Virus record (IMG/VR): IMGVR_UViG_3300023274_000007
Location: 1-23,146 of that record
Length of the DNA: 23,146 nucleotides
Origin: a virus
Direction: 5' to 3' (one strand)
A model generated the notes under the pieces. It made no database searches and was not told the DNA's origin. It saw only the letters and a program-made list of their open reading frames with translations. Of the stretch, positions 4,202 through 22,767 are shown in pieces. The position numbers and the translations under genes are program-made. Numbering within the stretch: position 1 is the stretch's first letter; every line of letters starts with the position of its first letter.

Positions 4202-5020
4202 CTACTCAGGCTCCGGGCCTACGCGGCACGGGCCCTTCTCGTTGATGGTCTTCTGGTCTGTCCCGTTGGACAGGTAGATCCGCCAGTAGGACTCAGCGTC
4301 ATCCCCGAGACAGTCCATGTCGGTGACACTCCACGGAGGCGGGGCGTCCTTGCCATCGGATCCTGGCTTCCCGTCACAGGGCTTGTCGTCCTGCGCGCAG
4401 TACGCGGCGAGAGCGAGCTTCGCGGACGCCAGCAGTTCTTCGTCGGTGATCTTCGGGGCCGAATCCCCTTTCTCTCCCTGTGGTCCGCGTGGACCGGGGG
4501 AGGGAGTGACGACGGGGGCGCGGCATCGGTCGCCGGCGCAGTAGGCGGCGACCGAGATCTGCGCGTAGCGCTGCATCTCGGCCGCGGTCGGGGTCTTCCC
4601 GTCCGCTGGCTTCGGGATCAACGCTGCCGCAGTGCGGGCGATCTGCGAGATCTCTGCCTGCGTGATCGACACCTTCTGCTGCGACAGTTGCTGAGAGACG
4701 ATCTGCCGTACGGCTTCAGCTTCGTCGGCGGTGAACTCGTCAGGCTGCACCGGGAGTGGTGCGGGCGTGACGGTCGGCACCGGGACCGGGGACTTCCCGA
4801 GAGCGACCAGCCTGCGGTTCGCCTCATCCAGCCCGCTGACCAGCTTGCCTTGGTTCTCGGTCAGCGCCTCCACCTGAGGCTTCAGGGTGCTCACCTCGGT
4901 CGCGGCGCTGTCGGCCTTGCTCTCCAGCTCGGGCACCTTCAGCAGTGACCAGGTGAGGGCGAACGTCAATGCGATGACAGCGCCAGCGAGGGCACCGTGC
5001 ATCCGTACTCGTGGACTCAT
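4202..5020 (-). CDS. membrane-anchored collagen-like protein, 272 aa
   Basis: Residues about 10-27 (ALAGAVIALTFALTWSLL) form a single N-terminal membrane anchor. Next come a coiled coil (LESKADSAATEVSTLKPQVEA onward, to about 75), a Pro/Val linker (SPVPVPTVTPAPLPVQP), and a helical region with AEAVRQIVSQQLSQQ. A module ending AAYCAGDRC is repeated later as AAYCAQDDKPC. Gly-X-Y collagen-like runs lie between and after them (PRGPQGEKG; DGKPGSDGKDA). The C-terminal domain has two more Cys. A stalk outside or across the membrane is likely. Its place next to the lysis genes suggests a lysis accessory or spanin-like connector; a minor tail or surface protein is the alternative. The ATG overlaps the upstream stop (ATGA). 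Confidence 0.7.
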   Translation of the reverse strand: MSPRVRMHGALAGAVIALTFALTWSLLKVPELESKADSAATEVSTLKPQVEALTENQGKLVSGLDEANRRLVALGKSPVPVPTVTPAPLPVQPDEFTADEAEAVRQIVSQQLSQQKVSITQAEISQIARTAAALIPKPADGKTPTAAEMQRYAQISVAAYCAGDRCRAPVVTPSPGPRGPQGEKGDSAPKITDEELLASAKLALAAYCAQDDKPCDGKPGSDGKDAPPPWSVTDMDCLGDDAESYWRIYLSNGTDQKTINEKGPCRVGPEPE

Positions 5021-5415
5021 GACGGGCCCAACTCCTCCGGGATATCCACCCCGTGATCGGTCAGCATCGTCCGGAGCTTGTAGCTCTTCATCCGCTCCGA
5101 CAGCAGCTCGCGTTCGTGGTCCACGCGCAGCTGCTCTATCTTCTGCTCGTTCGACTCGCGCAGTTCGTCGATCTTCGTTTCGAGCGACCGGACGCGCGTG
5201 GTGAGCTCGGTCATCTTCTGTTCGGTGTTCTTACCTGACTCGTGCTCGCGGGCCTCGGCAGCGATGCGGCGATTCTTCTCACCTTCGACGTCGATCTGCC
5301 GCGCCTCCTTGTAGGACTTCGCGGCCAGGGCCAAGAGTCCAGCGAAGGTGGCGAGCGAGATGCCAGGGGCGACGAAGGTGGAGTCGGTGACCTCCAGCAG
5401 GAGTTGGGCGATCAC
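5017..5415 (-). CDS. membrane protein with long coiled coil, 132 aa
   Basis: The GTG at 5415 overlaps the upstream gene's TGA (GTGA). An N-terminal hydrophobic segment (about residues 14-33, TFVAPGISLATFAGLLALAA) is followed by a charged helix running to about residue 115: RQIDVEGEKNRRIAAEAREHE, then TEQKMTELTTRVRSLETKIDE with clear heptads, then EQLRVDHERELLSERMKSY. This resembles small phage holin-accessory or spanin-like proteins with one membrane segment and a coiled-coil tail. The function is not provable. It overlaps the collagen-like gene downstream, so stoichiometric co-translation is likely. Confidence 0.7.
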   Translation of the reverse strand: MIAQLLLEVTDSTFVAPGISLATFAGLLALAAKSYKEARQIDVEGEKNRRIAAEAREHESGKNTEQKMTELTTRVRSLETKIDELRESNEQKIEQLRVDHERELLSERMKSYKLRTMLTDHGVDIPEELGPS

Positions 5416-5870
5416 TGCTCATCCCCCCGGCGTGGAACTGGGCCGCGGGCCCAGCAGAGGATCACGTGCGCGACGGTCACGACAAGGCTCATGGTGACGG
5501 CGCGGTAGATGGAACCGGTGAACTTCGCCTCCGGGGTGTGCGAGAACTGCCAGACGGCTTGCGCGGTGGCGACGGTGAATCCCGCGTAGAGGACCGCGCA
5601 GAGGAAGTGCCCGAGCCACACGGCGGCATGGCGTTTCAGCAGCAGCCCTACCGCGAGGATGCCGCCGGCCACGGTGAACAGGATCCCCCAGGTGTGGAGT
5701 GAGGCGAGCTTCTCGACCATGGTCAGCGACTGGGGTGCGCGGCCCGGGGTGTGCATGTAGTCCCACCCGGTGATGGCGGCGTTGACGGCGAGGAACCAGG
5801 ACAGCGCCCGCGCCATATACCAGGGGATGGGTGTTGTTGCGAGTAACGCACGGAAGTCGTTGATGCTCAC
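5412..5870 (-). CDS. four-helix integral membrane protein, 152 aa
   Basis: The start is GTG 5870 behind a GGGGGATC site. Four hydrophobic segments are visible: about 18-36 (MARALSWFLAVNAAITGW), 60-79 (GILFTVAGGILAVGLLL), 84-106 (VWLGHFLCAVLYAGFTVATA) and 122-142 (AVTMSLVVTVAHVILCW), ending in a basic tail. Multi-pass proteins of this size occur in actinophage lysis cassettes as second holins or holin partners. Here it lies three genes upstream of the endolysin in the same orientation. A role in lysis timing or superinfection exclusion is inferred only from position and topology. Confidence 0.75.
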   Translation of the reverse strand: MSINDFRALLATTPIPWYMARALSWFLAVNAAITGWDYMHTPGRAPQSLTMVEKLASLHTWGILFTVAGGILAVGLLLKRHAAVWLGHFLCAVLYAGFTVATAQAVWQFSHTPEAKFTGSIYRAVTMSLVVTVAHVILCWARGPVPRRGDEQ

Positions 5871-5891
5871 AGATCCCCCAGGTGCGGACGG

Positions 5892-6299
5892 TCAGCGGAA
5901 GAAGGCGATCGCAATCGACGCCAGGATCGCGAGACCACCGAGCATCGCGGTCTGAGCGGCAAGGCGGGACTCGAGTTTGTCCATCCGGGAGGTGAGGGTG
6001 TCGATCTTGTCCGTGTTGGCCTGTGCCCGCTGCTCGGCTTCCTTGCGGGGCATGAATGTCGCGGCCTGGTCGGTGAGGGTTTGGCGGAACTCATTGACGG
6101 ACTCGAAGCGTTTCTCAGACGCCGCCTCGGCTTTAGCCACGGCCCGCTGTTCGGCGGTCATGGCGACGGACGTGGCCTTGTCGGAGGCTGCGACGGCTGC
6201 CTCGACGGACTTCTCCTGGTCGCGGAATCGCTGGTCGACGTGTTCCTTCAGCGTGTCAACCGTCCACCCTGAGGGGTGCCTGTCAGTCTCTCCGCTCAT
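5892..6299 (-). CDS. coiled-coil protein with C-terminal membrane anchor, 135 aa (holin-like phage family)
   Basis: ATG 6299 is preceded by a very good GGAGGA site; the longer frame to 6365 lacks one and overlaps another gene. The sequence WTVDTLKEHVDQRFRDQEK, a long Ala/Glu/Lys helix (SDKATSVAMTAEQRAVAKAE), the conserved block KRFESVNEFRQTLTDQ, and a coiled coil KIDTLTSRMDKLESRLAAQ end in one membrane helix (AMLGGLAILASIAIAFF). This architecture is widespread in phages of Actinobacteria and is often annotated as a holin-like (XhlA-type) or membrane protein near the lysis genes. The family pattern is recognised from memory; the precise role remains uncertain. Confidence 0.78.
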   Translation of the reverse strand: MSGETDRHPSGWTVDTLKEHVDQRFRDQEKSVEAAVAASDKATSVAMTAEQRAVAKAEAASEKRFESVNEFRQTLTDQAATFMPRKEAEQRAQANTDKIDTLTSRMDKLESRLAAQTAMLGGLAILASIAIAFFR

Positions 6300-6462
6300 C
6301 TGGATCCTCCGGTGGGTTAGGGATCCTCGGGATGGCATAGACGACAGCGAAGGCGCGGGCGGCATCTTCCAGGACTTTGACTCTGTGCTCTAACCGCTCG
6401 ATGCGGATGAGCAGTGCGTCTACAGCGCCGGGAGGTGGGAGGTCAGGGTTCTTCTTCCCCAT
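6283..6462 (-). CDS. small protein, 59 aa, with helical heptads
   Basis: A short open frame from ATG 6462 to TGA 6283. It is supported by an ATGA overlap with the stop of the upstream gene (6462-6465) and a 17-base overlap with the start of the next gene, so it fills the only gap in this chain of genes. Residues 1-15 are basic and Pro-rich (MGKKNPDLPPPG). Residues 15-43 form a helix with heptads (LLIRIERLEHRVKVLEDAA), and the tail is Pro/Glu/Asp-rich (PRIPNPPEDPDERRD). A small coiled-coil protein that could pair with the coiled-coil membrane protein downstream is a reasonable guess. Confidence 0.65.
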   Translation of the reverse strand: MGKKNPDLPPPGAVDALLIRIERLEHRVKVLEDAARAFAVVYAIPRIPNPPEDPDERRD

Positions 6463-6782
6463 CAGGGGAGGATGGGCTTCTGCAACGCGCTGACGATCTG
6501 GTCCTGCTCAGCCGCCTCAGCCGCATCCCCGGCGGCGTCCGCCACTTCGGCAGCCTCCAGTACATCGAGGCGCTTCTCGTTGAAGCCGCCTTCGCGGGCC
6601 TGGTCGTAGGCCCACACGCCGCGAGGAAACGCGAGGCGGGGACTGTACGGCTTCCCGTCCCGGTCGGTCAGGCCGGGGAGGCTGGTGGTGTACCAGGCCT
6701 GGATCTCTTCGCGGACGATCTCCCGGAGACGTGTCTCCTGGCCTGGGGTGAAGACGGTTGGGGCCACAGTGAGGACGGGCAT
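6462..6782 (-). CDS. hypothetical phage protein, 106 aa
   Basis: ATG 6782 has GGAGG eight bases upstream (within 6788-6796); the longer start at 6839 reads back through a terminator hairpin. The N-terminus is hydrophobic (MPVLTVAPTVFTPGQ), followed by a helix RLREIVREEIQAWYTT and a loop LPGLTDRDGKPYSPRLAFPRGVW that looks like a compact fold. The C-terminus is an Ala/Glu helix (LEAAEVADAAGDAAEAAEQDQ). No family is recognised. It is the first gene after the terminator at 6810-6835, so it starts a new unit or is reached by read-through from the tail genes. Confidence 0.65.
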   Translation of the reverse strand: MPVLTVAPTVFTPGQETRLREIVREEIQAWYTTSLPGLTDRDGKPYSPRLAFPRGVWAYDQAREGGFNEKRLDVLEAAEVADAAGDAAEAAEQDQIVSALQKPILP

Positions 6783-6809
6783 GGTGGCCTCCAAAGGTGC
6801 CGGCATGCG

Positions 6810-6835
6810 AAGGGCCCCGCCGTGGCGGGGCCCTT
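6810..6835 (-). terminator. strong terminator hairpin downstream of the 6849-7289 gene
   Basis: AAGGGCCCCGC (6810-6820) pairs with GCGGGGCCCTT (6825-6835) around a CGTG loop, an 11-bp GC-rich stem flanked by A and T runs. It lies 13 bases beyond the stop of the minus-strand gene ending at 6849 and upstream of the 6782 start. The flanking A/T bases would allow function on either strand. Confidence 0.75.
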
Positions 6836-6848
6836 TCAAGGTCAGTTG

Positions 6849-7289
6849 TCAGGCTGTCGCTGGCTCGCCCGTCGGAACAAATGCGTACAAGCCGTCGGGG
6901 CCCGCCTTGGTCCGGTGGATCAGGGTCGGGTAGTCGTCTTCCTCATACAGATAGAAACCACGGAACTCCGCATGGCCAGAATCGAAGGGGGCGAACCACG
7001 CGAGGAACTTCTCAATCTCGCCGTCGTAATTCTTGAGCGACGAGTCGATGTTCAGCATCCACGCCTTCGCGATGTCGTCATAGGCGAACTGCGAGCCGCT
7101 CGTCTGGTGATAGTACGACGAACACACCATCAGCGAGTCGAAGCGCGGCGACTCGAAGAACTCATGGCTTGGCCATTCTTCGGGTGGCTCGGTTGCAGGG
7201 AAGGGGTTCGCCAGATGCTGCAGGATCGGTAGAGCTTCACAGTCGGGCCTAACCTCAGCCCAGAACGTGAAGCGGGTGTACATGCCCAT
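6849..7289 (-). CDS. hypothetical protein beginning MGMYTRFTFW, 146 aa, probable moron gene
   Basis: I chose ATG 7289, which overlaps the stop of a 12-codon leader frame (TGATG); a TTG at 7304 is the alternative and has no better ribosome site. The sequence is soluble and aromatic-rich: MYTRFTFWAEVRPDC at the start, a Pro/Glu loop (PATEPPEEWPSHEFF), then FDSLMVCSSYYH, a strand-rich centre, and a C-terminal FRGFYLYEEDDYPTLIHR. The opening resembles a family of small phage/actinobacterial proteins with an M-Y-T-x-aromatic start. The function is unknown. The base composition looks less GC-rich than the flanking tail genes, and it carries its own terminator, which points to a separately acquired unit. 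Confidence 0.7.
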   Translation of the reverse strand: MGMYTRFTFWAEVRPDCEALPILQHLANPFPATEPPEEWPSHEFFESPRFDSLMVCSSYYHQTSGSQFAYDDIAKAWMLNIDSSLKNYDGEIEKFLAWFAPFDSGHAEFRGFYLYEEDDYPTLIHRTKAGPDGLYAFVPTGEPATA

Positions 7290-7482: not shown

Positions 7483-7671
7483 ATGGCGTCGATGCTGGAG
7501 ACCCGCATCCAAACCCGGAACGACCTGCGGAAAGCAGGCGACCTGGAAGGGCTCACGCCGCAGCAGGCCGACTGGCTCGTTGAGCGGACCGCGCAAGCCC
7601 GCCACCGAGGACCGGTGCGGCAGGTGCTGCACGCCGGGGTCGAATGGATCAGCCGGCGGAGACGAGGCTAG
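7483..7671 (+). CDS. small basic hypothetical protein, 62 aa, opposite to the tail operon
   Basis: ATG 7483 follows a GGGGG-rich ribosome site (7472-7476). The protein is helical: MLETRIQTRNDLRKAGDLEG, then TPQQADWLVERTAQARHRG, then a basic end VEWISRRRRG. The segment LEGLTPQQADWLVERT has a helix-turn-helix-like feel but no firm match. Its last 23 bases overlap the 3' end of the fibre gene on the other strand. Together with the divergent 146-aa gene it forms a two-gene insertion between the tail fibre and lysis regions. The function is unknown. Confidence 0.55.
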   Translation: MASMLETRIQTRNDLRKAGDLEGLTPQQADWLVERTAQARHRGPVRQVLHAGVEWISRRRRG

Positions 7672-9457
7672 ACCCGTTGCTGACCCGCACGAACGACCTG
7701 GCGCCTGCAGCACCCGCGATCGGGGTAGTGATCAGCGCAGGAACCACGTTCCCGGTGATGTTCAGGTCCGTGTAGGTGCCGTCGTAGAACAGGCCCTGCG
7801 ACGTGGAGGCGTACCGTCCACCGCCACGGTTGAAGATCGAGATCCCCGCCATCTGCAGGTCGTCCGAGGAGACCCGGATCCCGGCCGTCTGGCTGGTGTC
7901 CGCCGTCAGCGCCGACGCTACGTATGGGGCGCCGTCGAAGTAGAACCCGATCACGTCGTCCTGCGACTCGCAGCCCGTGACGGTGCCGCGGCCGCTGGAG
8001 AAGTAGAACCCGACCGCGTCGGAGTAGAACGACTTGCAGCCGATGACCTTCGTGTTGCCGGTCTCGATGCGGAACCCGGAGTTGTCCGACCCGCCGACCT
8101 CGACGTTCGCGATGGTGCAGTCGGATGCAGCCTGGAGGTAGACGCCGTTGCCGCCGCAGTCGCGCATCGTGATCGACTCGATCCGGTTGCCGCGGTTGTT
8201 CGCGGTACCGGAGGCGTGCATCCAGATCCCGTGCCGGTTCGACCCGGAGAACTGGGAGATGTAGAGCCGGTGCACCTGGTGGTACGAGTCCGGGTTGGTG
8301 TTCGGGTACCCAGTCGTGTTCCCGGAGGCGGTCATGTCGAAGTTGATCGCGCTCGCCGTACCACCCGAGCCGCCGTTCCCGTCGAGGAACATGTTGCTGA
8401 TCTGGCAGGCATGGTCGTTCGCGTTCGCCAGCTGGAACACGCCAGCGGTATTGCAGGCGGCGGCTCGGACCACGGTCAGCCAGCCGGAACCTTCGACGTG
8501 GACGGCGGTGCGCATGTTGATGCCGGACGAGATGTTGAACTGGCCGCCCGAGAGTTGCACTTTCCCCAGCTGGCCCGCGCCGACAGGCATCCCGGCGTTG
8601 CGGGACTGCAGTGGGGCGGCGGCGTCGATCGCGGCCTGGATCTGAACCTGGTCCGCGGTCCCGTCACAGACGAACGTGTACGGGTCCGACGCCGCCGCGG
8701 TCCTGCGATCGAGTGGCGCGTCAGCCGACAGCACTACAGCATAGATCGGGCGGGGTGAGGTGCCCGTGGTTCCGAACCGGGCGTCGTTGCCCTGCGCCAC
8801 TGTGCCCGCAGTGGTGCCGTACACCACCGCGAGGGAGCGGTTCGCGGTCAGGTCCCCGCCACCGGTCAGGCCGGTGCCGGGGGAGATGGTGCGGCTGGTC
8901 GGTACGGCGCCGAGGTCGGCCGCATTCAGCACTACATTGCCGGACTCGGTGCCGCCCACGGGGGTGGTGATATCCGCGACACCAGACACGCCCGATGCCG
9001 GGAGGAATGACGGATCCACCTCGCCGCTGGCGTTCAGCGGGGCGACGCCGTTCGCGGCACCCTTCTCAGCAGACCCGATCGGGTCCAGCGCTTCGATGGC
9101 GCGGAGCCTGGCGTTCCCGTTCACCGGATTCGCAAGCCAGCGCTGTCCACCGGCGACGCCCGCACCCTGGCCAGTGACGTACACCGCATCGAGGGTGTCC
9201 TCAGCCCAGAACAGGAACGTGCTCGACGTTTCCGCGGGGAAGATGCCCGACGGGGCCGCACCGCCTGCGGCGGTGTAGCTGCCGGTGAACAGGGCGATGT
9301 CAGTGATCTGCGACCCGCCACTGCCCGCGCCCCACGCTTCGAGTGGGGCGCCGGGGTTCAGCTTCAGCACGGAGACCGTGCCGCCAGCGGCAGCAGGGAC
9401 CGAGACCTCAGTGACCGCGAAGTCAGAGGCGGTGCCGGCGTAGAGAATCTTCGCCAT
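7649..9457 (-). CDS. tail fibre / receptor-binding protein with right-handed beta-helix, 602 aa
   Basis: This is probably the host-recognition protein at the tail end. ATG 9457 has AAGGAG upstream. The N-terminal 150 residues are a beta-rich virion attachment part (MAKILYAGTASDFAVTEVSV; FLFWAEDTLDAVYV). A phage fibre motif follows at about 187-228 (ISPGTGLTGGGDLTANRSL, then YGTTAGTVAQGNDARF). From about 255 (YTFVCDGTADQVQIQAAIDAA) the sequence turns into pectate-lyase-type beta-helix rungs: HVEGSGWLTVV, IESITMRDCGGNGVYLQ, NVEVGGSDNSGFRIETGN, KSFYSDAVGFYFSSGRG. This fold is common in depolymerase tailspikes, but catalytic residues cannot be assigned by eye. It is the last gene of the tail operon. 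Confidence 0.82.
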   Translation of the reverse strand: MAKILYAGTASDFAVTEVSVPAAAGGTVSVLKLNPGAPLEAWGAGSGGSQITDIALFTGSYTAAGGAAPSGIFPAETSSTFLFWAEDTLDAVYVTGQGAGVAGGQRWLANPVNGNARLRAIEALDPIGSAEKGAANGVAPLNASGEVDPSFLPASGVSGVADITTPVGGTESGNVVLNAADLGAVPTSRTISPGTGLTGGGDLTANRSLAVVYGTTAGTVAQGNDARFGTTGTSPRPIYAVVLSADAPLDRRTAAASDPYTFVCDGTADQVQIQAAIDAAAPLQSRNAGMPVGAGQLGKVQLSGGQFNISSGINMRTAVHVEGSGWLTVVRAAACNTAGVFQLANANDHACQISNMFLDGNGGSGGTASAINFDMTASGNTTGYPNTNPDSYHQVHRLYISQFSGSNRHGIWMHASGTANNRGNRIESITMRDCGGNGVYLQAASDCTIANVEVGGSDNSGFRIETGNTKVIGCKSFYSDAVGFYFSSGRGTVTGCESQDDVIGFYFDGAPYVASALTADTSQTAGIRVSSDDLQMAGISIFNRGGGRYASTSQGLFYDGTYTDLNITGNVVPALITTPIAGAAGARSFVRVSNGSSLVSAG

Positions 9458-9524: not shown

Positions 9525-10442
9525 TTAGGCGTCGGCGTATCGGTAGTGCCACACGGGCGAGCCGGTGATGATCTGCCCGGCCGCCATGGTCACGTCGTTG
9601 AATCCCATGGAGCCGGTGCCGGCGGAGACGTAGAGGCGACATGGGCTCGAGCCGGCCCAGATGGTCTCCGTGACATCAACACTGCCCCCTGGCCACAGGG
9701 CCGAGGGGAGAGTGACGGAGAAGTCGACGTTCGTGCCGGTGCCGGTGCCAACCTTGGTCCAGTTGAAGGCGACCTTCACCATTCCGTTCCGAACACGGGC
9801 CTTCATGGTTCCGCTGAATCCGGCAGGGGCAGGGAGTGCGTCGTACCAGCCGGTGTCCGAGTCGGCCTTGAACTTCCAAGTCTCCGACCCGAAGCCGCCG
9901 AGGATCACCTCGCCGTCGAAGGGCTTCGTCCACAGTCGGCCGGGGAAGGTGTCGGGGAGCTTGTCGCCATTGATCGCAGGGAGGCCGTCGACGATCCACA
10001 CCCGAATATCGCCAGCGGCAACGTTGACAGCGGTGTAGTCGGCGGCGCCCGAGGCGAGCACGAGCTCGTACAGCGGCACGTCGTACGTGACCCCAGGATT
10101 CAGGTTGTATGACGGAGCGGTCGCACCGCCGACAAGGATCATCAGCGAGCAGGTGTCGGTGGTCCAGTTCACTCGCATGACCAGCAGGTCGATCCGGTTC
10201 GCGCCGGTGGAGTTCGCAGCCACCGCGGTCGGGGTGGTGACCGAGTCCATCGTGACCAGCACGCCGGGGGCCCACAGTTCACCCGGCTGCACTGTGACAG
10301 TGCGGGAACCGGCGACGCGGGCAGCGGCGAAGTTCGTACCACCCACCGTGCCGCGGATCCCGTAACCGCCGACAGCGTTCATCATCTTCGCGAACGGCTG
10401 TTCGTTGACCTGACCCTCGAAGCCGACCGGGGTGATCGCCAT
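9525..10442 (-). CDS. minor tail protein, 305 aa
   Basis: ATG 10442 overlaps the upstream TGA (ATGA) and follows AAAGGAG. The N-terminal half reads PVGFEGQVNEQPFAKMMNA, then GTVGGTNFAAARVAGSRTVTV and GELWAPGVLVTMDSV, a pattern I know from actinophage tail-tip/baseplate upper proteins in which a beta-sandwich precedes a fibre-like C-terminus. The region NRIDLLVMRVNW and the stretch PLYELVLASGAADYTAVNVA continue the fold. The C-terminal 120 residues (about 185-305, VILGGFGSETWKFKADSDTGW onward) look like a compact beta-sandwich carbohydrate-binding or tip domain. It lies between the Gp37-like protein and the beta-helix fibre, consistent with a bridge between them. Confidence 0.75.
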   Translation of the reverse strand: MAITPVGFEGQVNEQPFAKMMNAVGGYGIRGTVGGTNFAAARVAGSRTVTVQPGELWAPGVLVTMDSVTTPTAVAANSTGANRIDLLVMRVNWTTDTCSLMILVGGATAPSYNLNPGVTYDVPLYELVLASGAADYTAVNVAAGDIRVWIVDGLPAINGDKLPDTFPGRLWTKPFDGEVILGGFGSETWKFKADSDTGWYDALPAPAGFSGTMKARVRNGMVKVAFNWTKVGTGTGTNVDFSVTLPSALWPGGSVDVTETIWAGSSPCRLYVSAGTGSMGFNDVTMAAGQIITGSPVWHYRYADA

Positions 10443-12430
10443 CAACGGCTCCTTTCCTGGCGGAGGATTCGCGCAACAAGCCCGAGATACTTGCGGGCGA
10501 ACGCGGTGGACTTGTTCGACGAGTCGGAGTTCCCGACCGTGGGGGTAACCTTCGGCGCCGAGCCGGCCGTATGACTCAGCACGACCTGCGCCACGATGTC
10601 CGGCAGGAATGTGTCCTGCGCGACCTCGACCTTGACCTTGTCGCCGAGGTTGTAGTCGCGTGCGTACTGCATCGACTCGGTGTCCATCGGGGTGATGGAG
10701 AACCCAGCTGTTGCGCCGTAACCGGTCAGTAGCAGCGCGCCCTTGGTGGAGGCGACCGCGTCGACGGTGGCGTCGGTGATGTCCTCGAACTTCTCGGTCG
10801 CCAGCCAGTACGTCTCCGAAGCGGGGAGCTTCTTCTGCATGTACTTGCGGGCGAGACCTTCGCCGGTCATGCCGACCACGAGACGGCTGGCGATCGGCGC
10901 CTCCAGCACGTACTCCCAGGAGCGGAGGTTTCCGAGGTTCTCCGAGAGACGGACCGCCTGGGTCGCCGGTTCGTACACGTCGAACACCAGGTGGTCATCG
11001 ACTTGCTTGAGGGACACGCCCAGCCCGTTGGTCTGCGCCACCCGGAAGCAGATCTCGGCCAGCGTCTCCCAGCGAGGCCCGTCCGTCTCGGTGGGACCAC
11101 GCCCCAGGTCGGGCGCGACCACGAGGCCGGCGATCGGGTGCCGAGTAACTGCATTGCGAGTCACCCAGTGCTTGATGATGGTCTCGGCGTTGTCGGTTGC
11201 CGCGTCCTGCAGTGTCGACTGAGTGAACGAGACGCCGTCTGCGGGGAACGACGCGAGCGGGTTCGGGTAGCCGAGGCGTCGCTCGAGCCACCGTTTGTCG
11301 TCGAACCCGTAGACCTCGTTGGTGATCTTCCGTTCGTCACGTGCACGGCGGATCCCGTGCACCTCGCCCGACATCACTCGTACGCCGCGGTAGTCGACGG
11401 TGATCCGCCGGTCCGCGCGTGCGAGCTCAAGGACCGACTGGTCCGAAGGGGAGAGGTTGATCTTCCAGGACCCGATGGCGTTGTGCCGCAGCGTGAACTC
11501 GCACGACATGTACGAGCCGACCTCGCCTACCTTCTGGTAGGGGTAGACGTTGCTGTAGATCTGGATCCTGAACGGCGCCCGCTCCGGTTCGGTGGTCGGA
11601 ACGGAAATTGTCGGTGAGGTCAGGGACAATGCCGCGGATCCGCTGGAGGTGGCGGTACCAGTAGCGGCGAGGGGGAGCTTGCCGAGGATCGCTGCACTGC
11701 CGCTCGATGTGGCTATGCCGGCGGAGCTGAGGGCGAGCTTCTCCCTGAGGGCGGCCGATCCGGACGATGTACCGGTTCCCGAGGCGGAGAGTGCGAGTGG
11801 GGCTGCAGCCACGGTGACGCCGACGATCCACATGATGACGCCGTCGTTGGCGACATCGGCGACCCAGTTCCCGCCACCCACTGAGCTCGCGGCAGGGACG
11901 GTAGTGAGGCTGTACGCCACGCCAGCAGAGGTCGCGCCGGACCCAGTGTTGTGCGCCTGTCCACCAACCGTGAAGGTGGAGTGAGTGAACGACGTCGACG
12001 GGGTCGACTCGCGCTCCAGGATGAACGCCAGCCCGGCATCACCGGTGACAGCGGTAACAGTCGGGGCGGCGTGCGTAGTGGTGACGGATGCTTCGATGGT
12101 GAAGTTGTGCACATCAACCGCGGACACACCGGACAGGACGCCGATGGCGGCGGCGAGCTTCTGGCTCACCGGGTTGGTCAGCGTGACCGTCCCGCCGCCT
12201 TCGCCCGCGCCGAGAACTCGGTAATACAAGCGCCCTCGGAAGGACCCTGAAAAGTCCCGGTCCACATCCAACTGGGTCCAGCCGGCCGTGATGGTCGAGT
12301 CGCCGCCCGGCTGGTTGTAGCCGTGCGCAACGACAGCGACATCGCCAGCGGCTGCACCTGCCGGGATGGTGAGGGAGACGGTGGTCGAGGCGTTGTTCGC
12401 TGCCGATCCACCGACCCACGTTGCGGTCAC
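10442..12430 (-). CDS. Gp37-like tail-tip protein with N-terminal repeat-module fusion, 662 aa
   Basis: The GTG at 12430 overlaps the upstream TGA (GTGA). Residues about 1-208 are a beta-rich domain (TIPAGAAAGDVAVVAHGY; SFRGRLYYRVLGAGEGGG; VMWIVGVTVAAAP-type end). Residues 211-273 carry three repeats of about 20 residues with core A-x-G-x-A-T-S-S-G-S-A-A-L. From about 283 a Siphovirus ReqiPepy6 Gp37-like domain follows: FRIQIYSNVYPYQKVGEVG, SCEFTLRHNAIGSWKINL, ARADRRITVDYRGVRVMSGE, then GFDDKRWLERRLGYP and the C-terminal DKVKVEVAQDTFLPDIVAQV. That family is a tail-tip/hub-type virion protein. The N-terminal module matches the protein encoded at 19700-21088, so the gene is a fusion of an adhesion-like module with a core tail protein. 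Confidence 0.82.
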   Translation of the reverse strand: MTATWVGGSAANNASTTVSLTIPAGAAAGDVAVVAHGYNQPGGDSTITAGWTQLDVDRDFSGSFRGRLYYRVLGAGEGGGTVTLTNPVSQKLAAAIGVLSGVSAVDVHNFTIEASVTTTHAAPTVTAVTGDAGLAFILERESTPSTSFTHSTFTVGGQAHNTGSGATSAGVAYSLTTVPAASSVGGGNWVADVANDGVIMWIVGVTVAAAPLALSASGTGTSSGSAALREKLALSSAGIATSSGSAAILGKLPLAATGTATSSGSAALSLTSPTISVPTTEPERAPFRIQIYSNVYPYQKVGEVGSYMSCEFTLRHNAIGSWKINLSPSDQSVLELARADRRITVDYRGVRVMSGEVHGIRRARDERKITNEVYGFDDKRWLERRLGYPNPLASFPADGVSFTQSTLQDAATDNAETIIKHWVTRNAVTRHPIAGLVVAPDLGRGPTETDGPRWETLAEICFRVAQTNGLGVSLKQVDDHLVFDVYEPATQAVRLSENLGNLRSWEYVLEAPIASRLVVGMTGEGLARKYMQKKLPASETYWLATEKFEDITDATVDAVASTKGALLLTGYGATAGFSITPMDTESMQYARDYNLGDKVKVEVAQDTFLPDIVAQVVLSHTAGSAPKVTPTVGNSDSSNKSTAFARKYLGLVARILRQERSR
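11612..11800 (-). repeat. three tandem about 20-residue coding repeats (copy 1 of the module)
   Basis: Residues 211-273 of the Gp37-like protein contain PLALSASGTGTSSGSAAL, LALSSAGIATSSGSAAI and LPLAATGTATSSGSAAL. Each unit begins with a hydrophobic strand, has an A/S-G-x-x-T-S-S-G-S-A-A core and ends in a short hydrophobic strand. The unit agrees with the ten repeats in the gene at 19700-21088. The underlying DNA has diverged between units, so this is not a recent slippage product. Confidence 0.85.
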
Positions 12431-13392
12431 CAGGCCCGCCAGAACTTCGGGCGGTACGTGAACGACACGCTCATCCCCGTGGCGGCACCGACCACTGTGA
12501 CGCCCAGGTTCGTGGTGCTCGAGGGCGGGATGGGCGCGAAGCGCACCATGTCCTCACCGACCGAGGCCCACTTGTTCGCGCCGGTCTCGTCGATGATCGT
12601 CGCGACCCGCGGGTTCGTGTTCACCTCGATCCACTCCCCGGCATCCTTCGAGAACGGGATCGTGATCAGCCCGGACCCGAACGTCGCTGACGCTGACGTG
12701 AACGGGCCGGTGAAGCGCCACACCCCGTACGCGTTGGCGTCCCCGGGGTTGGTGATGGTGGCGGTGTCGATCGTCTGGCTGGACGAGATGTAGAACGGCG
12801 GGCCGAACCCACCCGGGGTGCCTCCGTAGAAGTTCACCCCGGGGGAGTACTTGAACGCCGACACGATCTCGTCGCCGTAGAAGAACGGGTCGTAGGCGCG
12901 CATCGTCAGCGAGTGCCGGATCCAGGAGATCCCGTAGGCGTTGGTACCGAAGTCGCCCTCGCCGCCTGCGACGTAGCGCAGATCCAGGGACCGGCGCTGA
13001 CCGTCCGGGGCGGTGACGGTGAACACTCCCGTCTGGTCCGGGCGGAGCGTCGTCATGAACCGACGATGCTCGTCACGCATCCCTTGCGGGGAATCGGCGA
13101 TGATGATCAGCGGCCATGACACGTCTCGGGGGAGGACGCTGTAGCCCTGCCACGCGGCGCCGTCAGCGGTGGCCGAGACGTCCGAGTAGTGCTCAAGCGG
13201 GGGCATGACGATGCCACCCCTGCCATCAGCCTCGAGCAGCGCCATGGAACTGAAGTCGCCGCCGAGGGTCCAGGTGTCCCCTGTCCAGCCGGTCCACGTC
13301 AGCAGAGGCTGAGCGTAGGCGGCCGGCAGGGGAGCGTCCGGTGTGGGGATGATCGGTCCGGGGGGCGGGGTGGTTCCGACTACGACCGGCAC
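12427..13392 (-). CDS. distal tail protein (Dit-like), 321 aa
   Basis: GTG 13392 is preceded by AGGAGG, a perfect ribosome site. Dit proteins form the ring between the tail tube and the tip. The position immediately after the tape measure gene and the sequence both fit: a Pro-rich start (TTPPPGPIIPTPDAPLPAA), WTGWTGDTWTLGG, a strand with SVLPRDVSWPLIII, DEHRRFMTTLRPDQTGVFTV, and RSLDLRYVAGGEGDF followed by RAYDPFFYG. The C-terminal half (about 195-321) is a beta-sandwich with GVWRFTGPFTSASATFGSG and FSKDAGEWIEVNTNPR, as in phage_tail-type Dit proteins. The stop overlaps the next start (GTGA). Confidence 0.85.
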   Translation of the reverse strand: MPVVVGTTPPPGPIIPTPDAPLPAAYAQPLLTWTGWTGDTWTLGGDFSSMALLEADGRGGIVMPPLEHYSDVSATADGAAWQGYSVLPRDVSWPLIIIADSPQGMRDEHRRFMTTLRPDQTGVFTVTAPDGQRRSLDLRYVAGGEGDFGTNAYGISWIRHSLTMRAYDPFFYGDEIVSAFKYSPGVNFYGGTPGGFGPPFYISSSQTIDTATITNPGDANAYGVWRFTGPFTSASATFGSGLITIPFSKDAGEWIEVNTNPRVATIIDETGANKWASVGEDMVRFAPIPPSSTTNLGVTVVGAATGMSVSFTYRPKFWRAW

Positions 13393-13401
13393 GTCCGCCT
13401 C

Positions 13402-16400
13402 CTAAATGTTGTAGCTGGTGGCCATGTCGCGGAACGCCTCGTCCACCTCGACGCGGGCGATCTCGGAGATCTCCCGATCGCCGATGAACACACGGATCTG
13501 CATCGGGCGGCCAACGGCCGCCTCCTGCTCCGCAGTGCGTACGGTCTCCGTCTTGCCGGTGCCGTTGTAGGCGAGAGTGCCGGGAGCCCAACCGCCCGCC
13601 TTGAGGCCGGTGTCGAACTTCTGCACACCGAGCGCCCTGGCAACCTCCGCCTGGAAGTTCTTCCCGCGGGGGTTGAGTAGGTCGAACGGGAGATCCCCTT
13701 CGAGACCAGGCCGTCCGCCATCCTTGAAGCCCTTGACCTTGGCCTGGTTGGTGAACAGTGGATCGAAGGCTCCGCGAGCTCCGGACCCGACAACGACTCC
13801 ACGTCCACCACGGGACTCGAAGTTGACGCCGTTGATGGTGGCGGCGGTGTGGCCCGGGTTGCCCTTGAACCAGCCGACCATGAACCGTCCGATGCCTGCG
13901 GCCATGTCGCCCCACGGCATCGACCCGGTAGCACCGAGCCGACTGAATGGGTTGCGTCCCTTGGCGTAGTTGATCAGCGCCGACACGAACCCCGAGCAGT
14001 CGTAGCCGTTCGGTCCTGCTGCACCCCACACGTAGGGCTTGCCTGCCTGGGATCGGCCGAAGTTCATCGCGCCGCCGAGTCCACCACCGGACTTCGCCAA
14101 CTGCTTAGCCATGGCGGTGGCCAGGACGTTCACGCTCGCACCGACACTCTTCGCCAGCGCGGTCGAGTCGCCTGAAGCACCGACTGTCAGGCCAGCCCGT
14201 CCACCCGCGGCGAGGCCGGGGATGATCGTCGCGGTGCCGGCATTCACCGACGCCATGGCTTGGTCGCCGTACTTCATCGACGACGCAGCCTTGACCACCC
14301 ACTCCTTGTTGCTGAGCGCATAGAGCCCTGCAGTGTCAGACGTGGTCGTGCCAGGCCCGCGAACCGGGCCGCCGGGGCCGCCCATCGCGCGGCGACCCAC
14401 TGAGGACGGTGAGGTCAGGTTGACCCCAGTGGAGGAGTACTTGATGGCGATGTCCACAGCCTGGTCGGTGATGCCGCCGAGCTTGCGGTTCACGTCGTCA
14501 CGGAAGGTGCCGAACTCCTTCGCGGCACCCTTCAGCTTCTCGCCCAGACCAGGCACCCAGCCGAACGCCTTAGCGGCACCCTCGAGCATGAACTCGATGA
14601 ACCCGAGGAACTTCTCGGCCACGTAGGCGAGTGATACCCGGACCGCTTCCTTGATGCTGTTGAACGCGTCGACCATGTAGCCGATGGTGGTGATGACGGC
14701 GCGGATCTGGCCGGCTACCAGCGGGAAGTACTCGTTGGCGAGCTTGCCCAGGATTGGGAAGATCTGCTCCACGACGAACTTCGCGACCGTCTTGAAGGCC
14801 GACACGATACTGTCGATCTGGGGGCGGTTGTCCTGGATCGCCTGCTTGACAGTGTTGAAGGCTTCCTTCAACTTCGCCAGGTGGGTCGAAACGAATTCAC
14901 CGACGATCGGCGCGACCGTGTCGACAAGGTACCCACCGAAGGACCGCAGCGGGGGGATGACGTTGTCTCGGATGAAGTTGCCGAACTCCACGACCCGCGG
15001 CAGAACCTCGGCTTTCAGGAAGCCGGCGAACTCCCTCAGTCGGGGCATCACGTCCGACTTGAAATACTCGAACGCCTCGCGGGCCTTGATGCCGATGTTC
15101 GCCATCACGCCCGGGAATCCGGCCGCTTCGGTCTTGCCTGTCTGGAACCCCTGGATCAGGGAGCCGAACCCGTCGACGGAGCCCTGTTTCAAGGTTCGGA
15201 AGAACCCAGTCAGGGTCTGCTGCGGCGTGGACCCGACGGTCTTCACCATCCGGTCCGCCGCACCTCCGACCTTGTCCAGCGCCGTCACGGCCTGGGAGGG
15301 GTCGAGAGCGAACAGCGCCTTGCCGAGATCCTCGGCCTGGGTGCCGAACAGTTCTACCGCGATCTGCGACTGCTTGACCGGGTCCTTGATCTTCCGCAGA
15401 CGGTCGAGCACGGTGTCGAGCCCGGCCGCGGCAGGCTTGCCACCCTTGGCAATTTGAGCAGCCATCTTCTCGGCGTCGATACCCAGGGATTTAAAGCCGG
15501 CAGCCGTGGTCTTCGACCCGTCGATCGCACGAATCGAGAACTCCTTGATGGAGTCCGCGACCAGATCGCCGTCGCGCGCGCCAGCCTTCAGGCCCTGGGA
15601 GATCAGCGCGGTGGCGGTGGTGCCATCAATGCCCATCTTGCGGAACTGGGTACCGTACTCATTCAGGGTGTCGAGGAAGTCCTCGGACTTATCCGCGCCG
15701 GTCTGGAAGCCGCGGGTGATGATATCCAGCGCTTCCGTGGCGTTCTTCGCGAGGCCGGTACGCATCAGCTGCCCAGTCGCCCGAGTGACGCCACCTAGAT
15801 CCTGGTCGAACGTCTGCGCCAGGGTCAGCACCTTGCCGGTGACCGGCTTGAGGTCGACCGAGTTCAGACCGACGTTCGTGTCCTGCACGACGCGTCGGAT
15901 AGCGTCGTTGACCTGACCGAGGGAATCGCCGTAGGCGCCCTTGTAAAGGTCGCCGGCGACCTTGCCGGCTTTCGCGGCCTCACCATCGGACAGACCGAGT
16001 TGAGCCTGGAACTTTGCCTTCGTGTCGCCCTGCGCGAGGGCCTCCTTGAACGACTCGATGAAGCCTGCCGCAGCGACTGCGCCGGCCGCAAGGCCGGCAG
16101 CAGCAGCGAAGCCGGTCTTGAAGAACGATGTGACCCTGCCACCGATCCCGGGCAGGCTCTTGGAGAACCCGACCCCGAACCGGTCGCCAGCCTTGTCGCC
16201 CTCGTCGTCGGTCTTGACCTTCGACAGCGCGTCCTTCAAGCCGCGGTTGAACTTCTCGCCCGACTCTGACCCAGACTGCTGTGCACTCTGGGCGGCCTTG
16301 GTCCGGGCCTTCTCCAGTGACGTCGCCGCCTTGGCTGCGACGTCACCTGCGGTAGCAGACTTCCGCTGAGCCGCAGCTAGCGCCTCTTCCGCAGCGACAG

Positions 16401-16668
16401 CCCGGGCGGATGTGGCACCGAACTTCTCGCGGGCCTCCCCAAGCTTTGCCTCGGCAACCCTGACCTTGCCCGCGGCATCGGCTTCGGCGGTACGCGCCTT
16501 ACCCAATGCGTCACCGAGCTTCGAGATCTTCGCCTCGGCAGCCTTTGCGGCTGCGTTGGCCAAGCGCTCGCCGTACTCCTTGCCAGCCTTGTCGCCTTCC
16601 TTCTTGACGTCGCTCATCCCGGTGAACTTGGGACCGACCTCAATGAAGGCGTCGTACAGCCTGCCCAT
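13402..16668 (-). CDS. tape measure protein with NlpC/P60 peptidase domain, 1088 aa
   Basis: This is the longest gene in the window. It sets tail length and is injected with the DNA. The start ATG 16668 overlaps the upstream stop (TAATG). Order: N-terminal coiled coil, residues about 20-130; hydrophobic Ala-rich stretch at 183-205; TP901-type central core with DTNVGLNSVDLKPVTGKVL and GVTRATGQLMRTGLAKNATE (about 265-330); long helical and amphipathic region 520-740; Gly-rich linker; NlpC/P60 domain from about 868 (MNFGRSQAGKPYVWG) with catalytic Cys891 in YDCSGF and His940 in PGHTAATING. The peptidase cleaves peptidoglycan stem peptides and probably opens the wall at entry. A beta/helical tail (RVFIGDREISEIARVEVDEA) closes the protein. 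Confidence 0.95.
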   Translation of the reverse strand: MGRLYDAFIEVGPKFTGMSDVKKEGDKAGKEYGERLANAAAKAAEAKISKLGDALGKARTAEADAAGKVRVAEAKLGEAREKFGATSARAVAAEEALAAAQRKSATAGDVAAKAATSLEKARTKAAQSAQQSGSESGEKFNRGLKDALSKVKTDDEGDKAGDRFGVGFSKSLPGIGGRVTSFFKTGFAAAAGLAAGAVAAAGFIESFKEALAQGDTKAKFQAQLGLSDGEAAKAGKVAGDLYKGAYGDSLGQVNDAIRRVVQDTNVGLNSVDLKPVTGKVLTLAQTFDQDLGGVTRATGQLMRTGLAKNATEALDIITRGFQTGADKSEDFLDTLNEYGTQFRKMGIDGTTATALISQGLKAGARDGDLVADSIKEFSIRAIDGSKTTAAGFKSLGIDAEKMAAQIAKGGKPAAAGLDTVLDRLRKIKDPVKQSQIAVELFGTQAEDLGKALFALDPSQAVTALDKVGGAADRMVKTVGSTPQQTLTGFFRTLKQGSVDGFGSLIQGFQTGKTEAAGFPGVMANIGIKAREAFEYFKSDVMPRLREFAGFLKAEVLPRVVEFGNFIRDNVIPPLRSFGGYLVDTVAPIVGEFVSTHLAKLKEAFNTVKQAIQDNRPQIDSIVSAFKTVAKFVVEQIFPILGKLANEYFPLVAGQIRAVITTIGYMVDAFNSIKEAVRVSLAYVAEKFLGFIEFMLEGAAKAFGWVPGLGEKLKGAAKEFGTFRDDVNRKLGGITDQAVDIAIKYSSTGVNLTSPSSVGRRAMGGPGGPVRGPGTTTSDTAGLYALSNKEWVVKAASSMKYGDQAMASVNAGTATIIPGLAAGGRAGLTVGASGDSTALAKSVGASVNVLATAMAKQLAKSGGGLGGAMNFGRSQAGKPYVWGAAGPNGYDCSGFVSALINYAKGRNPFSRLGATGSMPWGDMAAGIGRFMVGWFKGNPGHTAATINGVNFESRGGRGVVVGSGARGAFDPLFTNQAKVKGFKDGGRPGLEGDLPFDLLNPRGKNFQAEVARALGVQKFDTGLKAGGWAPGTLAYNGTGKTETVRTAEQEAAVGRPMQIRVFIGDREISEIARVEVDEAFRDMATSYNI

Positions 16669-18956: not shown

Positions 18957-19289
18957 CTACCCCCCGGTGACTCTGGTGACGACCATCTCCACGTGGTGCT
19001 CGCGGCTTGCGCGGCGGTGGCGTTCGATCTCGCCGTCGACCTCGTAGACGACGCCGAAGAACCGCCAACGATCCGAGGCGGTGATGTCCGCTCCTGCCGG
19101 CAGGAGTACGCGCCACGAGGTGACGGTGCGCTGCTGGTTGTCGACGTTCTCGCTGGTCGAGTTCGGCTGATGCTCACAGGGCAGGTCGAGCTCGCCGGGC
19201 GGCTGGTTCCAGTCGATCCGGTCGGGGCGGCCCTGGGTGCCTGCGACAACCACTCCCCTGAGGCGGGTGCCGCTGTCGCGGAAGCGCAC
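18957..19289 (-). CDS. head closure / head-tail connector protein, 110 aa
   Basis: GTG 19289 overlaps the upstream TAG (TAGTG). The protein is a small beta barrel: a basic N-terminus MRFRDSGTRLRGVVVAG, a loop with NQPPGELDLPCEH, then RTVTSWRVLLPAGADITASD and RWRFFGVVYEVDGEIER, finishing HHVEMVVTRVTGG. The motif W-R-V-L-L-P-A-G-x-D followed by D-x-(Y/W)-x-F-x-G-x-x-Y-E-V-D-G is characteristic of SPP1 gp16-like head closure proteins of actinophages. It lies directly before the tail terminator, as expected. Confidence 0.8.
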   Translation of the reverse strand: MRFRDSGTRLRGVVVAGTQGRPDRIDWNQPPGELDLPCEHQPNSTSENVDNQQRTVTSWRVLLPAGADITASDRWRFFGVVYEVDGEIERHRRASREHHVEMVVTRVTGG

Positions 19290-19690
19290 TACTCGACGCT
19301 CATGGTGAGCGCACCGATGGCCACGGTGAACGAGTCGCCGGAGATGCCGTCACGTGCGGTGTCGGCGGTCCAGTAGAAGATGAAGTCACCGGACGTGCCG
19401 GAGCTCGCGGACACCAAGGCCAGGTGGGTCACGCTGGCCGGGTCGAAGGACACCGGGCCGAACGTGATCAGGTTGGTGTTCGCGGTGACCTCAGCCGACG
19501 GGGCGCCCCAGGTCACGGACTGCCGGGCGTAGCCGGTACCACTGAGCTCAGCCATCGTCGACAGGATGGTGGCGTCGGTCGGTGCCGAGGTGAGCAGGGC
19601 GAGGTAGGTGGTGCGGGCGGTCTGCGTGGCACGGCCACTCATCGCGTCGAGGGCGATGTGCGAACCGGCAGTGCTGGCCTGTCCAGTCAT
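19289..19690 (-). CDS. virion-associated protein, 133 aa, partner of the repeat protein
   Basis: ATG 19690 comes nine bases after the stop of the repeat-rich gene and follows a GGAGGCACCC site (AGGAGG). The sequence starts MTGQASTAGSHIALDAMSG, then TYLALLTSAPTDATILSTM, ELSGTGYARQSVTWGAPS, NTNLITFGPVSFDPASVTHLAL-type strands, and ends GDSFTVAIGALTMSVE. The pattern S-G-T-G-Y-A-R-Q then V-T-W-G-A-P-S is a family I recognise from actinophage virion genes of unassigned role. It looks like a beta-sandwich. With its neighbour it interrupts the usual connector-to-head-closure order, so both may form a head or neck appendage. Confidence 0.65.
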   Translation of the reverse strand: MTGQASTAGSHIALDAMSGRATQTARTTYLALLTSAPTDATILSTMAELSGTGYARQSVTWGAPSAEVTANTNLITFGPVSFDPASVTHLALVSASSGTSGDFIFYWTADTARDGISGDSFTVAIGALTMSVE

Positions 19691-19699: not shown

Positions 19700-21088
19700 C
19701 TACGGGCGAGTGGTGACGCCCGCATTGGGGCGGGTGACGAGAACGGTGGGCGGGCGGAGAGTGACCCCGGTGTTGGGGCGCGGGGTGATCGGGGTTCGCA
19801 GGCGCAGGTCTGCGGTGCCAGAAGAATCGGCCGACCCGCCCGCGGAGAGGGGGAGCGTTACGGCAAGTGCTGCGGCGCCACCTGTTGCTGCAGCTCCTGC
19901 CGCCGCGAGGGCGATGGTTGACCCCAGCGCCGCGGAACCCGCAGATGCCGCCGTGCCGCTCGCGGACAGTGGGTAGGTGGTAGCGCCGGCGAGCAGCGTC
20001 AAAGCGGCGGTGCCGGACGATGCGGCCACGCCAGCGGCGGTCAGAGCCACGCGCTCGAGCAACGAGGCCGAGCCACCGGACACTGATGCGCCGCCGGCGG
20101 ACACCGGGAGTTTCAGCGTAAGCGCTGCAGCGCCGCTGGATGTGGCGAGGCCCGCCGAAGCGAGGGGGGGCTTCAGGGCCAACACCGCGCTGCCACCGGA
20201 GCTGGACGCTCCTGATGCGGTGAGCGCGTGGCTCACCGGCCCAGTGACGAGACTCAGCGCAGCAGAACCTGCTGAAGTCGCGGCGCCGGTCACCGCCATC
20301 GCCAGCGACGAGGCAAGGGGGGCCGAGCCGCTACTGGCTGCCGCTCCTACGGAACCAAGGGGCAGCACTAGCGCGACCGGCGCGGCGCCCGTGGAGCTAG
20401 ATGAACCGGCCGCGGAAAGCGTGAGGGGCGTGGATGTTGGGCGGAGTGCGATCGTCCACGTCACCGCCGTGCCGCTGCTGACGTAGCCAGTGAATGAGGC
20501 GGGATCCACCGGGAGGGCAGCCCCGGTGGAGAGGCCGTCGTCGGCGATCGTGGTGACGGTTCCGCCTGAACCTGTAGCGAGAGCTTCGGTGCCGGTGCGT
20601 TCCGAGAACCCTGCTGGCGGAGATGCGCCAGTTGATGCCGCGCGATCTGCGCCGATGACGACGATCGAGTCGCCATCCGCAGCACCACTCGCGGTGGTGA
20701 TCTGTGGGCAGTCGTGGCTGGTGCCGGTGACGGTTTCCTGACGGGACACCGCACCGGACACATCGCTGTATCCACGGACCACGTACAGCACTGCGGTCTG
20801 TCGGTTCTGCAGGCTGGTCGACCAACCTGTGACAGCGCCCGTCTCAGAGCCGTCACAGACTCTCTTCAGGAGGCGGGACTTCAGGTTGCCGTCCGTCACC
20901 TGAGCGATGAGGGTGAACGCCTGACTGGTCGGGTCGGTAGCGGTGACGGTGGAATCGCCGAACGACCAGGCCAGGAGCGCAACATCCCCAGCTTGTACGC
21001 CTGAGGGCCAGTTGAGTGGGGCGGAGTTGGCTGCGGTCAGAGCGACGACGTTGCCGCCTGCCGCGTTGGCGCCTACGAAGGTACCCAT
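19700..21088 (-). CDS. repeat-rich virion protein with beta domain, 462 aa
   Basis: ATG 21088 follows GGAAGG; the open frame extends to 21376 only by overlapping the connector gene. Residues about 1-218 are a beta-rich domain: GVQAGDVALLAWSFGDSTVT, SRLLKRVCDGSETGAVTG, TAVLYVVRGYSDVSGAV, then GDSIVVIGADRA and PAGFSERTGTEALATG. Residues 221-431 contain ten Ala/Ser/Gly repeats of about 20 residues. The end has RPNTGVTLRP and RPNAGVTTRP, a duplicated tail. The N-terminal domain shares conserved spacing (A-G-D-V-A, G-D-S-T, R-L-x-x-R-V) with the start of the Gp37-like protein. The location in the connector block suggests a head or neck fibre; a displaced minor tail protein is the alternative. No enzyme motif is visible. 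Confidence 0.72.
   Translation of the reverse strand: MGTFVGANAAGGNVVALTAANSAPLNWPSGVQAGDVALLAWSFGDSTVTATDPTSQAFTLIAQVTDGNLKSRLLKRVCDGSETGAVTGWSTSLQNRQTAVLYVVRGYSDVSGAVSRQETVTGTSHDCPQITTASGAADGDSIVVIGADRAASTGASPPAGFSERTGTEALATGSGGTVTTIADDGLSTGAALPVDPASFTGYVSSGTAVTWTIALRPTSTPLTLSAAGSSSSTGAAPVALVLPLGSVGAAASSGSAPLASSLAMAVTGAATSAGSAALSLVTGPVSHALTASGASSSGGSAVLALKPPLASAGLATSSGAAALTLKLPVSAGGASVSGGSASLLERVALTAAGVAASSGTAALTLLAGATTYPLSASGTAASAGSAALGSTIALAAAGAAATGGAAALAVTLPLSAGGSADSSGTADLRLRTPITPRPNTGVTLRPPTVLVTRPNAGVTTRP
19796..20428 (-). repeat. ten tandem about 20-residue coding repeats (copy 2 of the module)
   Basis: Units start at residues about 221, 242, 262, 286, 307, 327, 347, 372, 392 and 412 of the repeat-rich protein. 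Examples: PLTLSAAGSSSSTGAAPVAL, LPLGSVGAAASSGSAPL, PPLASAGLATSSGAAAL, VALTAAGVAASSGTAAL, LPLSAGGSADSSGTADL. The consensus is a hydrophobic strand, A-x-G-x-A-x-S-S-G-x-A-A-L, then a short hydrophobic strand. Spacing is 20-21 residues with three insertions of about four or five residues. This would suit a beta-hairpin stack or solenoid. Confidence 0.88.
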
Positions 21089-21843: not shown

Positions 21844-22767
21844 TCACAGCCCCGTGATCTTGCGGGCAGCAGCCGGCTCGACCACGACAGGGACGGTAAC
21901 GCGGCGGCAGCGCAGGCGCCACTCGTCGGTCTTGTCCTCGCGGATCGACTTCGCCTGCACGCCGACACCGCCGGCGGAGGTGTAGCCCGGGCCACCGAGG
22001 TCCTCGTCGGCCATGCCGCCCAGCTGGTCCCGGTCGAGAACAAGGCCGACGCCGGCGGTGGGGATGTTCGGAGTGGCAAGCCACTGCATCCCGAGGATGG
22101 TCGGGAAGTCGCCGGTCAGGGCCGGGTTGTCGGCGACGTTCTCACGAGGCACGTAGCCAGCGGCAACGAACGCCGCCATCGCGTAGCCCCAGTTGATGTC
22201 GTCGAGGACGACGGTGTTCGGGTCGTAGCCCTGGTTCAGCGCGACGATGTTCTGCTTCGCGAGCATCACATCCTTGAGGATCTGCGCGGCGGTCGCGGTC
22301 GACCAGGCAGCAGTCGCAGCCGCGGTGGCGGTCACCGCGGAGGCGATCGCTGCCAGCGCCACCGAGTCGACGTACTTGACGTTCTGGTTCGCGAGCTTCA
22401 GGAACGCGCGCTCGACCGGATCCATCTTGCGACGCTTGATCGACGCGTCCGTGACCAGGGTGTCCTGGCCCCAGTTGACGGTCTTCGCCAGCGACGCGGC
22501 GCCCGTGCCGGGGTTGACGAGCGGGTACTCACCACCCGGCGCGACGGCGCGCGGGTTCTCGCCGGAGAAGATCGCCTCGCCGGTCTCGTAGAGAACGACG
22601 CCACCTTCCACGTCGTATCGCCCGGTCAACAGGGCGTCGGCGATGTAGCGCTGCTCGAGCAGTGTGCGCAGACGGCGCGCGACCAGAGTCGGATTGCCGA
22701 GGAACCGGCTGACGGTGACCGCGTCACCCGACAGGGTCGGCGTGGCAGGGGGGTATGCGTAGGCCAT
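21844..22767 (-). CDS. major capsid protein, HK97 fold, 307 aa
   Basis: ATG 22767 follows AAGGAG. The protein builds the head shell. The sequence has the actinophage HK97-fold pattern: N-arm with PPATPTLSGDAVTVSRFLGN, then RRLRTLLEQRYIADALLTGR, the E-loop and P-domain region EGGVVLYETGEAIFSG, VNWGQDTLVTDASIKRRKMD, a spine helix VERAFLKLANQNVKYVDSVA, and A-domain DPNTVVLDDINWGYAMAAF. The C-terminal portion (MADEDLGGPGYTSAGGVGVQ then WRLRCRRVTVPVVVEPAAA) closes the fold. There is no visible protease or scaffold domain fused to it. It is preceded directly by the decoration protein. Confidence 0.9.
   Translation of the reverse strand: MAYAYPPATPTLSGDAVTVSRFLGNPTLVARRLRTLLEQRYIADALLTGRYDVEGGVVLYETGEAIFSGENPRAVAPGGEYPLVNPGTGAASLAKTVNWGQDTLVTDASIKRRKMDPVERAFLKLANQNVKYVDSVALAAIASAVTATAAATAAWSTATAAQILKDVMLAKQNIVALNQGYDPNTVVLDDINWGYAMAAFVAAGYVPRENVADNPALTGDFPTILGMQWLATPNIPTAGVGLVLDRDQLGGMADEDLGGPGYTSAGGVGVQAKSIREDKTDEWRLRCRRVTVPVVVEPAAARKITGL

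Follow-up and report, generated by a model that had tools for sequence, protein, structure and literature searches.

Two virion proteins encoded in separate gene blocks of one phage appear to carry the same N-terminal module, a beta domain followed by repeats. This locus therefore raises the question of whether the two modules are related and, if so, what such a module might do at two places on one particle. The window analyzed here is a 23,146-nucleotide stretch of DNA from an uncultured bacterial virus (positions 1 to 23,146 of IMG/VR record IMGVR_UViG_3300023274_000007). It encodes both proteins, hereafter A and B, and we confirmed their genes on the minus strand at the coordinates in Table 1. 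Judged by gene order, a preliminary description of this DNA was correct in placing B in the head block and A at the tail tip, gene A being located behind the tape measure and distal tail (Dit) genes.

Table 1. Proteins A and B, their parts and neighboring genes in the window
Feature	Position	Strand	Remarks
Protein A	10442-12430	-	GTG 12430 to stop 10442; 662 aa
A residues 1-209, N-terminal beta domain between start codon and Gp37 domain	11804..12430	-	
A residues 211-273, 3 repeats of 20 residues, sharing the private type of B	11612..11800	-	
A residues 287-662, Sipho_Gp37 tail-tip/hub protein, virion part	10445..11572	-	PF14594; 63% identity to module-free L029 protein
Distal tail protein (Dit), stop overlaps start of A	12427..13392	-	phrog_106
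Protein B	19700-21088	-	ATG 21088 to stop 19700; 462 aa
B residues 1-220, N-terminal beta domain, proposed tip	20429..21088	-	
B residues 222-432, ten ~20-residue repeats, proposed bead-docking string	19793..20425	-	
B residues 433-462, TPRPNTG..RP tail, proposed anchor	19703..19792	-	Conserved in same-slot proteins even with differing N-domain
Gp80-like protein, 133 aa, directly behind B, proposed bead	19289..19690	-	PF23140 5e-21; phrog_240 head protein
Major capsid protein (MCP), puts B in head/connector block	21844..22767	-	phrog_1650 7e-89

The N-terminal domains of A and B can be aligned over their full length with 27-30% identity (composition-adjusted BLASTP, E 4e-9), and the motifs that had been put forward as shared landmarks (A-G-D-V-A, G-D-S-T and R-L..R-V) are aligned identities. 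Their local alignment score of 154 compares with 52 ± 9 in shuffled sequences (z 11.8), and the HMM-HMM comparison that had been proposed as a check is significant (single-sequence hhalign, E 6.6e-5). In addition, a profile of seven relatives, built without A and without B, detected both proteins, with 22 bits for A (4e-6) and 18.5 bits for B (6e-5); none of the 2,000 shuffled decoys exceeded 3.4 bits. Alignments of the domains alone were used where inclusion of the repeats misplaced the last strand of the domain. The claim of one beta domain plus repeat module in two virion proteins is thus borne out by BLASTP, the shuffles, the independent profile and the repeats themselves. That two proteins rich in Ala, Ser, Gly and Thr came to look alike through convergence or biased composition is scarcely credible, since this reading, for all that the composition is skewed and HMMER reports high bias terms, is refuted by the composition-adjusted BLASTP, the same-composition shuffles and the independent profile, and fold searches with the two domains also converge. 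The two N-domains are related only distantly (branches of 1.6-1.7); they form one group (93/97), though the branches are long and their own subgroup is unsampled. Sequence searches with both N-domains in phage records, Pfam and PHROGs, and with that of A in plasmids and the PDB, returned nothing useful, and the Pfam profile search gave no match of note (Ig-like, CBM or lectin) even at E 10.

AlphaFold models of the A and B domains were of moderate confidence (mean pLDDT 65 and 67; pTM 0.65 and 0.72, respectively). The two models agree in strand order, and BFVD searches with both gave the identical first match, with ~34 of the 50 best matches common to both by our own count; the comparison of predicted folds, also suggested beforehand, therefore came out in favor of a common domain. 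Each model was obtained from an alignment that excluded the other protein, but the two alignments share 30 relatives, so this agreement is support rather than independent proof. The minor-tail beta domain in BFVD, as in Mycobacterium phage Hawkeye (X2KSL9) and Microbacterium phage ValentiniPuff (A0A386KPT7), matched the fold of both N-domains over the full length with a Foldseek probability of 1.00, although identity is only 11-24% and these proteins are mostly unannotated and stand alone or are fused to other domains. Fold searches of the PDB returned only generic jelly-roll neighbors at Z ~6, below the noise guide of the tool, in keeping with a predicted jelly-roll-like sandwich of generic type.

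The beta domain is a member of a large and so far unnamed family in phages. Viral contig scans that used A or B as a single query missed this family; it was reached by way of the capsid gene and then of alignments of proteins from the same gene slot. Alignment-based scans of viral contigs found the domain in 39 ORFs (2 of them in the window), and most carriers also contain a motif that is repeated every 20 or 21 residues. When 31 whole records, which are fragments, were searched, 26 held one copy of the domain, 2 held two and 3 held none. A 728-residue protein (L099, positions 394-2580, from the same record as L068) has the beta domain in mid-protein and another domain at its C terminus, and is the second domain copy of its record, 15 kb from the first. 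Fusion of the domain to other proteins is therefore not unique to the window. In L054, two overlapping ORFs in different frames (4598-5926 and 5155-7272) both encode the beta domain with Ala/Asp-rich repeats; these are probably tandem paralogs with open-frame artifacts at their ends.

The gene slot of B was compared across relatives. We collected 26 related contigs via the capsid protein, which in close relatives is 74-86% identical. In eight other contigs, some of them fetched later than the capsid-based set, the same two connector genes flank a protein in which this beta domain is followed by ~20-residue repeats, the sequence of which varies by phage group. Those B-slot proteins that were read to their end have the RPNTG..RP C-terminal tail, and the proteins of L006 and L018 combine a different N-domain with retained repeats and tail. 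A tail that is conserved while the N-domain is exchanged suggests that the C terminus of B anchors the protein and that its N terminus is the exposed end; the layout of A, with the module first and the virion part last, fits this reading. In L004, the B slot holds a 638-aa protein that was considered as a second Gp37 fusion and dropped, being without Pfam support.

The repeats connect A and B more closely than the domains do. The three repeats that had been noted behind the domain of A are present, each of 20 residues, and B has ten of ~20 residues. Autocorrelation, taking the best of 19 lags, gave 20 residues for both tracts (z 8.2 for A and 9.6 for B), and the MCP and Dit, used as controls in the same test, showed no period. 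Compared with each other, the repeats of A and B reached z 13.4, against 5.1 for the best other carrier, so that the pair has a phage-private repeat in common. As the repeats are alike and the domains distant, repeat sequence evidently stays alike within this genome though it differs between phages, which could come from exchange between the two genes or from joint acquisition. In the best A/B repeat pair, 9 of 12 codons are common, versus 4.6 expected, a figure that is no more than suggestive, this pair having been chosen as the best match. We also considered a recent copying of B into A and rejected it, the N-domains being too different in branch length.

The virion part of A is a tail-tip protein. 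Its residues 289-634 match Sipho_Gp37 (PF14594; E 5.6e-35) with 121.5 bits against a cut-off of 26.2, covering profile positions 2-370 of 370. In the closest relative found, L029, the distal tail gene is 62% and the Gp37 protein 63% identical, and the Gp37 domain follows directly after the start codon, whereas ~286 residues intervene in the window. Across the stop/start overlap of Dit and Gp37, 19 bases (GTTCTGGCGGGCCTGGTGA) are identical in the window and L029. The module of A thus sits in-frame just behind the start codon, at a junction that is module-free in L029. Gp19 of Arthrobacter phage MargaretKali resembles residues 287-662 of A and is likewise encoded behind the tape measure and distal tail proteins, but, like the L029 protein, it is without the 286-residue module and has no N-terminal extension. 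The matches listed from 611 phage records start at residue 283-287 of A. On these sequences, the simplest reading is an in-frame gain of the module in the lineage of A; the alternative is its loss in L029, the one close relative compared. A search of related records for PF14594 gave no match anywhere, a result that carries no weight. The earlier description of the module as portable is supported by the homology, by module-free L029 at the same junction and by the more than 35 other ORFs in which the domain has changing partners.

Other genes of the tail region, all on the minus strand, also merit mention. The protein encoded behind A (9525-10445) matches, in its first ~130 residues, PHROG families that bear the names lectin and "virion structural protein", and is a candidate for a further receptor-binding part. 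A 602-aa protein (7649-9457) has a weak right-handed beta-helix match and a tail-fiber segment, which makes a tailspike or depolymerase possible. In the tape measure protein (13402-16668), residues 876-902 give an NlpC/P60 match close to threshold, which may mark a muralytic domain carried by the tail.

The gene directly behind B encodes a member of PF23140 (75.8 bits, gathering score 27), a result repeated at the record level, and it also matches a PHROG head protein. PF23140 is named after gp80 of fiber I of podophage GP4. An elongated rope protein reportedly connects the gp80 dimers of that fiber, which is placed at the head vertex that bears the tail. A PF23140 gene is present in 12 of the 36 records bearing the domain or a same-slot protein and, by our own reading of the coordinates, adjoins the repeat protein in 10 of these 12; many domain carriers have no PF23140 gene within the stretch of DNA examined. 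Unrelated phages show this pairing as well: next to their Gp80-like gene, BcepMigl (gp57), MW202462, phiM5, PBC5 and Phlyer (gp33) encode a protein with a best period of exactly 20, at a score that no shuffle reaches. Period 20 is weaker in Itty13 and Gmala1 (p 0.04), the best lag of Gail gp32 is 12, and Gp80-bearing Lietuvens, pSt2308 and CcrSC have no period-20 neighbor; six control proteins showed no period. The Gp80-like protein of phiM5 matches PDB entry 8jou at 4.9e-14, and the matched chain is present ten times in that structure. B and the other candidate strings have no sequence match among solved chains in the PDB; such repeats diverge fast. As a 20-residue-repeat protein encoded beside a Gp80-like gene, B has one of the features that we would look for in a GP4-like rope.

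Some of these gene pairs have further features. The 20-residue-repeat protein beside the Gp80-like gene in MW202462 (L106, 5320-6150) was deposited as a "serine-rich adhesin" and has a Trp-rich C terminus. In Mycobacterium phage Phlyer (gp33-gp34; L112, 2253-3869) and in Gail (gp32-gp33; L120, 1516-2878), repeats are joined to a Gly-rich C-terminal domain and a Gp80-like "head protein" adjoins, within a minor-tail gene block. Phlyer gp33 and Gail gp32 are possible strings with the tip at the opposite end, period 20 being clear only in Phlyer gp33.

The Gp80-like neighbor of B, together with the period-20 pairing elsewhere, leads us to read B as the string of a bead chain. On balance, we favor the view that B is a bead-chain fiber string with a tip and that A is a Gp37 tail-tip protein carrying the same tip and a short string. 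The three Gp80-bearing phages without a period-20 neighbor, the many domain carriers without a PF23140 gene in the stretch examined and the lack of a match between B and any solved chain speak against this view. In such a model, B would be the string protein of a bead-on-a-string fiber at the head-tail junction (neck or head vertex), anchored to the virion by its C-terminal RPNTG tail. Its ten repeats would be docking sites for the neighboring Gp80-like bead protein, and its N-terminal beta domain would form the outward-facing tip. A would be a Gp37 hub with the same tip domain and three private string repeats behind its start codon, through which the tail tip would display the head group of B as well, possibly along with a few beads. 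Since the repeats look like a bead-chain string, the beta domain becomes the sole candidate for a binding head, and the role of the repeats is most likely more specific than had been supposed. GP4 fiber I provides the outline of a known system of this kind. The resemblance lies in the Gp80-like gene directly beside repeat protein B, a pairing also seen in phages unrelated to this one. B differs in its beta tip domain and RPNTG tail and in being without a sequence match to a solved rope, and the window differs in that part of the string is also present on a Gp37 protein. A limited literature search did not find this variant described, with its tip-bearing string, private repeats and the same module on a Gp37 hub.

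The preliminary description instead suggested a host- or glycan-binding element. In a purely adhesive reading of this kind, the beta domain would bind glycans of the host cell wall at the two places on the virion, and the repeats would be a mere stalk without bead protein. We consider this rather unlikely. Such a role would agree with the swapping of the N-domain among B-slot relatives, as expected for a host-facing part, and with the occurrence of the domain in proteins annotated as minor tail proteins, yet it leaves unexplained both the Gp80-like gene beside the repeat protein and the near-constant 20-residue spacing across unrelated sequences. Known phages provide precedents on either side. 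In mycobacteriophage Douge, the capsid, the tail tube and the baseplate all bear domains that bind glycans (PMC13033339); these Ig-like and CBM domains are, like those of A and B, small beta domains on both head and tail of one virion, but they belong to different fold families, and their binding was measured, whereas A and B are known from sequence and models. The distal carbohydrate module of the neck fiber of cyanophage A-1(L) did not bind its host (PMC10966104). That fiber, too, is a chain of beads attached to the neck and has a domain at its distal end, but in its authors' model the beads are trimers that connect head to tail, and no long string protein is involved. By analogy with these two cases, glycan binding by the tip could go either way, and host or glycan binding by the beta domain is plausible. 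A purely structural role, in which domain and repeats stabilize head and tail-tip assembly or pack on virion proteins and never touch the host, is distinctly improbable: the great diversity of N-domains and repeats among relatives with 74-86% identical capsids is unlike an internal part, even though the predicted fold is generic.

If B is a tipped bead-chain string, the presence of the same private string and tip on the tail-tip hub allows the function of the tip to be probed at two sites of a single virion. More tentatively, and as a possibility that we rate below even, bead-on-string fibers with a 20-residue docking period may be common among phages as a mostly unannotated class of appendage. 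Each phage would then have its private repeat, and the tipped string end could be mounted on both a neck fiber and a tail-tip hub, giving one virion tips, and perhaps beads, at both ends. Such repeat proteins are currently filed as hypothetical, minor tail or serine-rich adhesin proteins. If a period of 20 marks bead-docking strings, a Gp80-like gene with a period-20 neighbor would predict bead-chain fibers in many phages, and the same signature would then point to a variable, possibly host-facing, tip.
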